Shown here piece by piece: positions 7,075 to 35,920 of a DNA stretch of 64,000 nucleotides (within the stretch, counting starts at the first letter, position 1; each line of letters begins with the position of its first letter). The stretch comes from Pseudoalteromonas rubra (GTDB lineage Bacteria > Pseudomonadota > Gammaproteobacteria > Enterobacterales > Alteromonadaceae): positions 3,603,501-3,667,500 of the forward strand of contig NZ_CP013611.1 of assembly GCF_001482385.1 (NCBI RefSeq), read 5' to 3'. The notes beneath the pieces are model-generated. The model was not told where the DNA came from. It ran no database searches and worked only from the letters and a program-made list of their open reading frames with translations. A program made the translations under genes and the position numbers.

Positions 7075-7144
7075 GCGAGTCATGGATGACGAGCCGGGCC
7101 GCAGCTTCAGGACGAATTAATCTGCAGTACTTCAACTAGCTCAA

Positions 7145-7175
7145 AAGAAAAGGGTCACTTCGGTGGCCTTTTTTA
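7145..7175 (+). terminator. Intrinsic terminator after purL
   Basis: GGTCAC (7153-7158) pairs with GTGGCC (7163-7168), one G-T wobble, around a TTCG tetraloop, preceded by AAAAG and followed by six T's. It lies about 110 bases after the purL stop. The rest of 7039-7335 holds only the hairpin above and the leader of the next gene. Confidence 0.75.
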
Positions 7176-7335
7176 TTGCCTGTCACATTACTATGTTCAT
7201 GGTTTGGTATTATTCATCCTCTATACTTTCTCTCCTCAAGTTTTCTATGTAAATACCGATACAATGGTTGAATTAGAGGTACTTCCGGGCGCAGAGCGAC
7301 GCCTACAGACCAATAATGACAGTCAAGGAGTGAGT

Positions 7336-7878
7336 ATGGACATACAAGTACACCCAGGTAGCGCTTCAGTTAGCAAGCTGGTATCGCCAGCAAAAGTGCG
7401 TAATAGCAGCGATAAAGCGTCTGATGTTAAGGTAAGTGTGGAGATACAAAATCGCGACGAGGTTGATACCGTCTCCCCCTTACTGTCGCAAGAACTGGAT
7501 GACGAGGCAGGTCAATATAAAGAAGACAATCCGGTATTCAAAGAAGACTATGAGGATCTGGAGAAAGCCATGGCGCTGATCCAGGCGTTTATCCGTAAGT
7601 TACAGGCACAACTCAGCAAGTTAATGCAGTCTGTGCAGCAGCGCCATCTTCAGGTGCAGGAAAACGAACAAGCAGAAGCGTCATCGGATTTGGTGCTCGT
7701 TGAGCACATTGGCTTAAAGCAATATCGTGACATTACTAAAGTGGATGAAATTGCACTGCTGGAACAACAGCTCTCTGAACACAAGCAACTCGAAGCTGAT
7801 ATTCGCGTCAATATGATTAAAATGATCCTCGCGGAGCGTGAGCGGCTCGAAGAGCTCAAGCGTAAGGGTAAGCTGTAA
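7336..7878 (+). CDS. Coiled-coil protein of unknown function (180 aa)
   Basis: Not recognised. The reading frame opens at 7204, but the ATG at 7336 (MDIQVHPGSASVSKL) has AAGGAG about 6 bases upstream and is the likely start. The first ~75 residues are low in hydrophobics and acidic around DDEAGQYKEDNPVFKEDYE. From about residue 80 to the end a long Leu/Glu/Gln/Lys-rich helix (LEKAMALIQAFIRKLQAQL, later EIALLEQQLSEHKQLEAD) predicts a coiled coil. There is no signal peptide or membrane segment. It is followed 85-135 bases later by ydbH on the same strand, so co-transcription is possible. Confidence 0.75.
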   Translation: MDIQVHPGSASVSKLVSPAKVRNSSDKASDVKVSVEIQNRDEVDTVSPLLSQELDDEAGQYKEDNPVFKEDYEDLEKAMALIQAFIRKLQAQLSKLMQSVQQRHLQVQENEQAEASSDLVLVEHIGLKQYRDITKVDEIALLEQQLSEHKQLEADIRVNMIKMILAERERLEELKRKGKL

Positions 7879-33490: not shown

Positions 33491-34195
33491 ATGCAAAATG
33501 GGAGCTGCGTGGGCGTGGAAAACTGCGTGGAAAACTCGGTACTGGCATTACGAGCCCAACAAATCGCATCTGCGCGGCGGGAATTTAAGGCCCGGGGGTC
33601 AAAGCTGCCTCGTTGTGAGCGGTGTTTACTGGCACAGCCGCTGTGTATTTGTGCTGGGATTCAGGTTGCTGAGTGCGATAGTGCTGTGTGCCTGCTTATG
33701 TACCATAACGAGAGCTTTAAGCCGTCTAATACGGGGCGACTCATTGCTGATATTGTGCCGGATAACTATGCATTTCGCTGGGACCGCACTGATCCTGAGC
33801 CCGGCTTGCTGACTTTACTCGAAGATCCGGCTTATCAACCTGTCGTAGTCTTTCCAGCCGAAAATGTGGAGCCGGAACGCGTAATGCAACGTGTCACTCG
33901 GCAAAGTGGTAAAAAACCGCTCTTTATTTTCCTTGATGGCACCTGGCGTGAAGCGAAAAAGATGTTTCGTAAAAGCCCTTATCTGGATCAATTTCCGGTG
34001 TTGTCGGTAACGCCAGAAAGTTTGTCTGATTACAAACTGAGAGTGGCTCCGCACGCCCATCAACTCGGCACCGCAGAAGTCGCTTGTGTGGTGTTGGCTG
34101 AAAATGGCGAGACGCAGGCAGCAGAGTATCTGACTCAGCATTTCGTAGATTTTCGGGATGCCTATCTGAAAGGGAAAAAAAGTAAGCTTTCTTGA
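33491..34195 (+). CDS. tapT: DTW domain tRNA-uridine aminocarboxypropyltransferase (TapT-like)
   Basis: Likely makes acp3U47 in tRNA by transferring the aminocarboxypropyl group of S-adenosylmethionine. 234 residues. The N-terminal RCERCLLAQPLCIC is the family's cysteine cluster, and IFLDGTWREAKKMFRKSPYL is the DTW motif region, here DGTW as in E. coli YfiP. The start at ATG 33491 has no strong Shine-Dalgarno; initiation further downstream is possible. The convergent CsrB-type RNA ends about 30 bases after its stop. Confidence 0.85.
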   Translation: MQNGSCVGVENCVENSVLALRAQQIASARREFKARGSKLPRCERCLLAQPLCICAGIQVAECDSAVCLLMYHNESFKPSNTGRLIADIVPDNYAFRWDRTDPEPGLLTLLEDPAYQPVVVFPAENVEPERVMQRVTRQSGKKPLFIFLDGTWREAKKMFRKSPYLDQFPVLSVTPESLSDYKLRVAPHAHQLGTAEVACVVLAENGETQAAEYLTQHFVDFRDAYLKGKKSKLS

Positions 34196-34226
34196 GAGAA
34201 TAAAGCGCGCGAAGTGACGGCCCGCC

Positions 34227-34261
34227 AAAATAAGAAGAGCGCGACCCTTGCGGGCCGCGCT
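34227..34261 (-). terminator. Intrinsic terminator of the CsrB-type RNA
   Basis: On the minus strand AGCGCGGCCC and GGGTCGCGCT pair (one G-T wobble) around a GCAA tetraloop, followed by CTTCTTATTTT. Distance from the convergent tapT stop is about 30 bases. Confidence 0.85.
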
Positions 34262-34619
34262 TGACGGAATCTTCTAAATAGCATCCTGCTATGTTGATGA
34301 GATCAACTCCTTACATGCTCGTCCATGTCTCGCCTTGCGTTGTCATTCTGCGAGATGTACATCCTGTACTGTCCTTAAAGCAATCAGCAGTCCCAGTTGC
34401 TGAATGAGTCCATGCTAACCATCCTTTGTGTCGTCATCCTGACTTGTTCCTATCTCCCTGTATTCCAATACACCATCCACCTGTGTATCAACATCCTTAC
34501 TTAATCGGCATTTCCTGTTGTCCGAAGCCTAATCCTAGTTCCTGACACTCCTACCGCACAAACTCCCTGATAAGCAACTCAATCCATTTCCATGTTGCTT
34601 TGTGCTCTCCCCTTGAGAT
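34227..34619 (-). ncRNA. csrB: CsrB/CsrC-family regulatory RNA (CsrA sponge)
   Basis: No ORF occupies this 0.39-kb stretch. On the minus strand 34262-34619 holds 23 GGA trinucleotides, far above chance, often as CAGGATG or AAGGA. Many sit in the loops of perfect short stems: TAGCAGGATGCTA (34291-34279), GTACAGGATGTAC (34369-34357), GTCAGGATGAC (34443-34433). This is the hallmark of CsrB, which sequesters the translation regulator CsrA. The 3' end is an intrinsic terminator (34261-34238: 10-bp stem with one G-T, GCAA loop, then TTCTTATTTT). The 5' end is inferred from a -10 box TATACT at 34631-34626. csrA itself is not in the window. Confidence 0.9.
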
Positions 34620-34625
34620 GACTAA

Positions 34626-34631
34626 AGTATA
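34626..34631 (-). promoter_or_regulatory. -10 box of the CsrB-type RNA
   Basis: TATACT on the minus strand (one mismatch to TATAAT), about 7 bases before the inferred 5' end near 34619. The -35 region (CTGTTA or TGTTAT at 17 or 16 bases) is weak, as expected for a promoter needing an activator. Confidence 0.65.
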
Positions 34632-34704
34632 TGGGAGTCTGGGTGAGATAACAGCACGAAAAAACGCTTTGAATTTCGATTAAATAAATTGGCTGTAAAA
34701 AAAC

Positions 34705-34718
34705 TTGTTATCTAACAA
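34705..34718. repeat. Inverted repeat between csrB and the iron transporter
   Basis: TTGTTATCTAACAA: 6-base arms around TC, about 90 bases upstream of the inferred csrB start. A second short repeat, TGCTGA/TCAGCA, lies at 34735-34751. Either could be a protein site; neither matches a motif I can name. Confidence 0.35.
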
Positions 34719-34777
34719 AGACCTTTTTATATTTTGCTGATAAAGTCAGCATTATCTTCATAGATTGCGACAGGCTT

Positions 34778-34795
34778 AGTGAGAGATCTCTCACA
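34778..34795. promoter_or_regulatory. GacA/UvrY-type box upstream of csrB
   Basis: AGTGAGAGATCTCTCACA contains a perfect 16-base palindrome. On the minus strand it reads TGTGAG-AGATCT-CTCACT, matching the GacA/UvrY/VarA consensus TGTAAG-N6-CTTACA in spacing and in nine of twelve fixed positions or better. It lies about 160 bases upstream of the inferred csrB start, the usual distance for csrB/csrC activation sites in gammaproteobacteria. Confidence 0.8.
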
Positions 34796-34883
34796 ACTAA
34801 ATGTCCGGATGTCGCTATTTAATAAAATTGCAATATGTTGAACTATCGGCTGTATTTTGTCGGGATCCGGGTTACCATAGCCT

Positions 34884-34902
34884 GAGAATAGTTATTGTTA
34901 TT
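34884..34902 (+). promoter_or_regulatory. Possible Fur box before fbpA
   Basis: GAGAATAGTTATTGTTATT matches about 12 of 19 positions of the Fur consensus and reads as three NAT(A/C)AT-like hexamers on the minus strand. It lies 14-32 bases before the fbpA ATG. Iron repression is expected for this transporter, but the match is moderate. Confidence 0.45.
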
Positions 34903-34915
34903 ATTTGGAGCTTAT

Positions 34916-35920
34916 ATGAAAAGTGCAATCGCAACATTGCTTGCTGCTGTAACCAGTTTATCTGCTGTCGCTGCGGATGAAGTGAACATCTATTCCTATC
35001 GTCAGCCTTTCCTGATCCAACCGATCCTGGATGACTTTACTAAACAGACCGGCATTAAGACCAATGTTGTGTTTGCGAAAAAAGGTTTGATTGAGCGGGT
35101 TAAACGCGAAGGTAAACACGGTCGCGCCGATCTGGTTTTGACTTCAAACTTCAGTGCTATGATCCAGCTAGAAGAAATGGGGCTGACTAACCCCATCGAC
35201 AGCGATAAAGTCGATAAAAATATCCCGGCCAGCTTTCGTGATCCGGATGGTCATTGGGTCGCACTGACTAAACGCGTGCGCAATGTATACTCTTCAAAAG
35301 ACAGAGCAGGCAAGTTAACCAGTCTGAGCTATGAAGAGCTGGCTAGCCCTAAATACAAAGGCAAGATCTGCACACGTTCGGGCAAACACCCATACAATTT
35401 AGGCCTGGTCGCTTCTATGATTGCGCACCATGGCGAGGCCGAAACCAAAACCTGGCTGCAAGGGGTGAAAGCAAACCTGGCACGTAAGCCACAAGGTAAT
35501 GATCGCGCTCAGGTCAAAGCCGTAAAAGAAGGCTTGTGCGACTTGGCGCTGGGCAACAGCTATTACTTTGGCAAAATGCTTGAAGACAATAAGCAAAGAG
35601 CCTGGGCTGATGCCGTCTATATTAACTTTCCAAACCAGAGTGATCGGGGTTCACATTTGAACGTTTCGGGTGTCGTGATGACCAAGTACTCGAAAAACAA
35701 AGAAAATGCCTTGAAACTGATCGAGTTTATGACCGACAATAAAGCACAGAACATGTACGCCTCGATGAATATGGAATATCCGGTTAAACCGGGCGTCGAA
35801 TTGTCGAAATTAGTGGCATCTTGGGGCACTTTTAAGGAAGATAGCCTACCATTGTCCGAGATCAGTAAATACCGTCCGATGGCGCTTAAGCTCATCGATG
35901 AGGTAAAATTTGACCTTTAA
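34916..35920 (+). CDS. fbpA: Ferric iron ABC transporter, periplasmic substrate-binding protein
   Basis: 334 residues, start ATG 34916 with GGAG 6 bases upstream. Signal peptide MKSAIATLLAAVTSLSAVAA, mature start DEVNIYSYRQPFLIQPILDDF as in FbpA/FutA/AfuA-type transferrin-like Fe3+-binding proteins. The double tyrosine in LGNSYYFGKML is the iron-ligand pair. It delivers Fe3+ to the permease encoded next. fbpB starts immediately after its stop codon. Confidence 0.93.
   Translation: MKSAIATLLAAVTSLSAVAADEVNIYSYRQPFLIQPILDDFTKQTGIKTNVVFAKKGLIERVKREGKHGRADLVLTSNFSAMIQLEEMGLTNPIDSDKVDKNIPASFRDPDGHWVALTKRVRNVYSSKDRAGKLTSLSYEELASPKYKGKICTRSGKHPYNLGLVASMIAHHGEAETKTWLQGVKANLARKPQGNDRAQVKAVKEGLCDLALGNSYYFGKMLEDNKQRAWADAVYINFPNQSDRGSHLNVSGVVMTKYSKNKENALKLIEFMTDNKAQNMYASMNMEYPVKPGVELSKLVASWGTFKEDSLPLSEISKYRPMALKLIDEVKFDL

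Follow-up and report, generated by a model that had tools for sequence, protein, structure and literature searches.

What occupies the 720 bases (positions 34196-34915) between two genes of Pseudoalteromonas rubra? The window analysed here, a 64,000-nucleotide stretch, is C1:3603501-3667500 of a 5.9 Mb genome; a search of a plasmid collection gave no match. The initial annotation described the gap as a 700-base gene desert, close to its measured length, and placed in it a CsrB-family sponge RNA on the minus strand. On one side lies a convergent gene for a tapT-like DTW-domain protein (33491-34195, plus strand; PF03942, 190 bits), whose product shares 91-92% identity with its counterparts in three P. 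rubra strains and two other Pseudoalteromonas. On the other, a divergent gene (34916-35920, plus strand; SBP_bac_6/8, 58 bits) encodes an ABC transporter's periplasmic solute-binding protein, which we take to be of the iron type. Judged from its sequence, the gap very probably encodes a Csr-type sRNA that sequesters CsrA, running on the minus strand through 34229-34619 (about 391 nt, 23 GGA), with the 5' end placed from the -10 element and the 3' end from the terminator tail. Csr RNAs have already been published in this genus, and the window RNA adds a member to them.

The minus strand of 34227-34619 (393 nt) holds 23 GGA triplets, the number given in the initial annotation, including 12 AGGA and 8 GGAT; the plus strand holds one. 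Mononucleotide shuffles contain 10.6 +/- 2.7 GGA and dinucleotide shuffles 12.5 +/- 2.3, and 23 was reached in 0 of 2000 shuffles of either kind. Among 12722 stretches of 393 bases, taken from both strands of the window in steps of 10 bases, this one ranks first in GGA; its closest non-overlapping competitor holds 13.

That many of these motifs sit within short hairpins, as the initial annotation had noted, is borne out: 8 of the 23 can be placed in a 4-9-nt loop closed by at least four contiguous pairs. Shuffles give 2.4 +/- 1.4 (8 reached in 0 of 500), and the excess arises in part because they hold fewer GGA. Two of the eight candidates, at 34467-34489 and 34459-34472, overlap and are mutually exclusive. 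The clearest hairpins, all on the minus strand, are GATACAC-AGGTGGATG-GTGTATT (34467-34489), in which both partners of one pair differ in relatives (TGCAC/GTGCA for TACAC/GTGTA), TCAGCA-ACTGGGAC-TGCTGA (34384-34403), GTAC-AGGAT-GTAC (34357-34369) and, last before the 3' end, ATAGC-AGGAT-GCTAT (34278-34292). In the minimum free energy fold 15 of the 23 GGA are fully unpaired, and the mean unpaired probability is 0.72 for GGA versus 0.45 overall. The overall folding energy is mildly low (z -1.47), with 7 of 100 shuffles equally good, and does not discriminate the RNA from shuffled sequence. E. coli CsrB is similar in length and motif number (369 nt, 22 GGA), and under the same scoring 9 of its 22 GGA can sit in hairpin loops (shuffles 2.7). 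The neighbours differ: syd and yqcC flank csrB in E. coli, while the tapT-like and solute-binding-protein genes flank the window RNA.

Candidate transcription signals lie at both ends of the RNA. The hexamer TATACT, found by eye at 34626-34631 (minus strand), lies 6 nt before the inferred start, which it places near 34619. While the -10 box claimed earlier is thus in the sequence, a sigma-70 consensus scan did not report the promoter. Its -35 element, also judged by eye, is poor, and together with the silent scan this would be consistent with an activator-dependent promoter. A candidate for the activator's site is the UvrY/GacA-type inverted repeat TGTGAGAGATCTCTCACT (34778-34795, minus strand), whose centre precedes the inferred start by about 168 nt; it is identical at 16 of 18 positions to TGTGAGAGATCTCTTACA, which lies upstream of E. 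coli csrB. Nowhere else in the genome does a site come within one mismatch of the UvrY-type consensus. With up to three mismatches the scan returned 50 sites versus 39 for the reversed control, so that weaker matches carry little meaning. In all 31 tapT-linked regions (the window and 30 orthologous loci) the 400 bases preceding the GGA cluster contain a candidate box matching at 13-17 of 18 positions, and each outscores all 50 mononucleotide shuffles made of its own region (shuffle maxima 12-14). At the other end, the predicted GNRA-loop terminator is found at 34238-34261 (minus strand) as a 10-pair stem with a GCAA loop followed by CTTCTTATTT; none of the other three terminator-like sites in 34150-34900, where 0.6 are expected in all, is as long.

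Assignment to the CsrB family depends on what is taken as its mark: architecture and locus support it, the Rfam model does not. RF00018 matches the window RNA at 20.1 bits (E 0.0026 in a 1-kb search), a weak match in the direction predicted by the initial annotation but far under the gathering threshold of 71 bits, at which Rfam, CsrB included, finds nothing in the window. Across the genus, searched under stricter filters, it matches 15 of 108 genomes at E<=0.001, this genome not among them, and reaches its cut-off in none of the 108. At E<=10 it also matches 8 of 14 control genomes, so a weak RF00018 match by itself proves little.

Using the tapT-like DTW gene as a marker we collected 34 Pseudoalteromonas loci, and in 30 of them a GGA cluster, the motif GATTCCG and a terminator follow downstream of the gene; in the other four (L024, L025, L036 and L037) the RNA is absent from the 2.3 kb read. 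Loss of the GGA motifs from orthologous intergenic regions had been named beforehand as evidence against a sponge RNA, and they are conserved. Between the window and five loci of the P. rubra group 99.1% of GGA triplets are kept, versus 84.1% of other triplets, and only 1 of 69 GGA columns varies as compared with 37 of 322 others (Fisher p 0.0066). The RNAs of these five relatives have 22-24 GGA and keep the box and the terminator.

The last ~130 nt of the RNA, its 3' module, served to build a covariance model, R1, from the window together with 26 orthologous loci; of the 30 available, the near-identical L007, L008, L009 and L018 were omitted. In the P. rubra genome R1 has one strong match, the window RNA itself (119 bits; it is in the training set), and its next-best match scores 21 bits (E 0.54). 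Genus and family were searched under stricter filters, with which weak matches are lost. R1 matches 98 of 108 genus genomes at E<=1e-6, part of them possibly by construction since genomes of training loci may be among the 108, and 107 of 108 at E<=0.01, this genome included; nine of these matches are weak (7e-5 to 0.0027), and only G009 gave none. In a family-wide sample of 295 genomes R1 matches 16 at E<=0.001; 15 are Pseudoalteromonas, and the match in the remaining one, G349, is weak (2.2e-4). R1 locates this RNA, a probable controller of a global regulator, in nearly all genus genomes searched; RF00018 finds it in none above its cut-off. Given the four of 34 loci without the RNA and the 10 of 108 genomes without a strong R1 match, the tapT-linked RNA is not indispensable.

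Within the 3' module, two elements other than GGA are conserved. One is a GGA-free hairpin with a 16-nt A-rich loop (34327-34356, minus strand), whose loop is largely constant among relatives and whose stem shows paired changes: 14 cells are changed on both sides, versus 3.9 +/- 1.6 in shuffles (0 of 500 as high) and at most 6 for slid versions of the stem. Of five covariation measures, two fall short of significance: covarying pairs (4 versus 2.9 shuffled; 137 of 500 as high) and pair types (71 of 500 as high). These figures come from 19 rows, 15 of them distinct, after omission of L006-L010 (five copies of the window's hairpin), the near-duplicate L018, and L020, L027, L030, L031, L032 and L039, in which the hairpin in its counted form is absent; leaving out these last six makes the count favour the hairpin, and kinship among sequences can beat such shuffles without any structure. 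A role of this hairpin in turnover or folding is a guess. The other element is GATTCCG (34265-34271, minus strand), lying between the last GGA hairpin and the terminator in 30 of 30 orthologous GGA-cluster loci, where it doubled as the anchor for cutting them. It could possibly pair with a GGA motif, serving in self-sequestration or as a cleavage site. RNAalifold on the 3' module returns mostly the terminator and a pairing of TTCCG with the last GGA; with covariation in 1 of 12 pairs, we do not rely on that pairing.

The genome encodes the partners that a Csr RNA would need: one CsrA (89.6 bits), a UvrY 67% identical to that of E. coli, and a BarA 39% identical over residues 1-916 of 918, the top-ranked of 25 matches, other kinases among them. 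BarA/UvrY, a system of the GacS/GacA type, senses metabolic end products. Transcription of the window RNA, its binding of CsrA, its control by UvrY and its route of turnover are all inferred, and we picture them as follows. The inverted repeat ~168 nt upstream would be the site through which BarA/UvrY activates the promoter; the resulting ~390-nt transcript would present many GGA, each one half of a binding site for a CsrA dimer; several dimers could thereby be sequestered at once, which would free CsrA's mRNA targets in motility, biofilm formation and carbon storage; and turnover would begin with RNase E cutting the unpaired segment that precedes the terminator.

Three Csr sRNAs, Pf1, Pf2 and Pf3, are described in P. 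fuliginea BSW20308 in PMC9927453 and PMC11882849. As given there, Pf1 was studied with promoter fusions, a glycogen test and deletion (PMC9927453), Pf2 and Pf3 with promoter fusions, CsrA gel shift, the glycogen test, deletions and RIP-seq (PMC11882849); all three have active promoters and antagonise CsrA in the glycogen test (PMC9927453, PMC11882849), and their CRISPR deletion is reported in PMC12628799. By similarity search Pf1 was found in 37.5% and Pf2 in 45.1% of 672 genomes, a set other than the 108 used here (PMC11882849). The two papers give Pf1 25 GGA (PMC11882849) or 21 (PMC9927453), and Pf2 21 (PMC11882849).

Which of these corresponds to the window RNA? Pf1 shares with it the nature of a Csr sponge, a GacA box and GGA hairpins, and shares with CsrB a glycogen effect tested in E. 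coli (PMC9927453). The Pf1 box CGTGAGACATCTCTTACA occurs exactly in 3 of 108 genomes, G001, G016 and G068. In G001 and G016 it lies in sense orientation directly 3' of a GNAT gene, and the GNAT-linked RNA of G016 has 25 GGA, from which Pf1 is most likely the GNAT-linked RNA. Against this match, the GNAT-linked RNA of G001 has 31 GGA, and in G068 the box lies as its reverse complement upstream of the tapT-linked RNA. We had considered the window RNA as the Pf1 locus on a match in L032, and dropped this once the box was seen in sense orientation beside the GNAT gene of two other genomes. By exclusion, the window RNA probably belongs to the Pf2-type, tapT-linked locus. Going by the description of Pf2 in PMC11882849, the two are alike in genus, intergenic site, motif number (21 versus 23 GGA), conserved upstream sequence and terminator; in G016, the genome that best fits Pf1, the tapT-linked RNA has 23 GGA versus the 21 given for Pf2 there.

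The initial annotation had allowed that the window RNA might be one of several copies, and the genome does hold at least one further Csr RNA. It adjoins the GNAT gene at C1:1642066-1642995 (L086:1567-2496, minus strand), probably the position of Pf1. As cut, from a putative start, it spans ~930 nt; it contains 69 GGA, 37 of them able to sit in hairpin loops, and none of its sense frames is open for more than 55 codons. It includes a tandem array of a 79-nt unit in 7.4 copies, each unit able to form three AGGA hairpins. RF00018 hits this locus in four pieces, two of them overlapping, over C1:1642329-1642942 (best 47.5 bits, under the cut-off). The inverted repeat TGTGAGACTTTTCTCACA, which overlaps the end of the GNAT gene, is alone a weak match. 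A triple-AGGA pattern matched the genome 65 times versus 16 for its reversed control, with the GNAT-linked locus alone standing out as a dense cluster and one match in the window RNA; the pattern would miss a sparse RNA with 9 GGA such as Pf3. The 69-motif, tandem-expanded sister looks unusual. Among the matches listed in the literature searched, outside which most subscription papers lie, we found no description of repeat-expanded Csr RNAs, and the words 'tandem repeat' occurred in reference titles only.

How do these observations bear on other explanations of the window RNA? A GGA-rich stretch arisen by chance, an untranslated region or an undetected coding region is extremely improbable. 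No shuffle reached the observed motif number, R1 traces the RNA across the genus, the RNA has a terminator and a box of its own, and a coding region was rejected since none of the three sense frames stays free of stops for more than 40 codons. The expanded sister raises the alternative that the tapT-linked locus is a former sponge, now minor or idle, with most CsrA-binding capacity supplied by the GNAT-linked RNA. The 69 versus 23 GGA and the absence of the tapT-linked RNA from some relatives speak for this; retention of the GGA triplets, the UvrY-type box and the terminator throughout the P. rubra group, at 22-24 GGA, speaks against it, and we consider it very unlikely. Sharing of the CsrA-sponging task between the two RNAs is the probable arrangement in this genome.

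An additional function, compatible with sponging, is conceivable for the 3' module: the A-rich-loop hairpin and GATTCCG might pair with an mRNA or recruit a processing protein. The hairpin is free of GGA and combines a largely constant loop with paired stem changes, GATTCCG recurs in 30 of 30 loci, and RNAalifold pairs TTCCG with the last GGA. Yet folding, termination or turnover alone could explain this conservation, the counted form of the hairpin is missing from 6 of 31 sequences, and two of the five covariation measures fail to reach significance; a second job seems unlikely. We retain CsrA sequestration as the very probable function of the window RNA.

The GNAT gene is present in 108 of 108 genus genomes; its locus was read in 107 (all but G059), and setting aside four flanks shorter than 1000 bases leaves 103. 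At least 15 GGA are found in 97 of these, at least 40 in 26, and a tandem array in 24. More than 50 GGA occur in 18 of the 103; the repeat unit measures 79-81 nt in eight of these and 87-89 nt, or twice that, in ten. Units of 108-110 nt and 124 nt occur at other copies of this locus. The 79-81-nt unit is present in 5.6-9.3 copies, with G051 equal in copy number to the 7.4 seen here, and shares with the 87-89-nt unit a GGAGCGC...AGGA...GAAG core. In L105, L123 and L127 draft contigs break off within the GNAT-linked GGA cluster, as would happen where a repeat defeats assembly, and copy numbers from drafts may be unreliable for that reason. Six loci (L125, L147, L152, L174, L175 and L176) have the GNAT gene without a GGA cluster in the following 1.5-1.6 kb, which points to a Csr RNA lost or moved there.

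Our tentative reading, just short of an even bet, is that Pseudoalteromonas tunes how much CsrA its Csr RNAs can bind by gaining and losing GGA-hairpin units in tandem within them, with copy number acting as an evolutionary rheostat. The Csr RNAs at the GNAT locus, with 18 to 80 GGA, form a natural series for testing capacity against CsrA activity. No tandem array was found in the window RNA. Elsewhere at the tapT locus arrays occur in two of 30 loci, L035 of P. aurantia (7092-7617) and L038 (7101-7547), with 66-67-nt units in 6.8-7.7 copies and 52 and 51 GGA, respectively.
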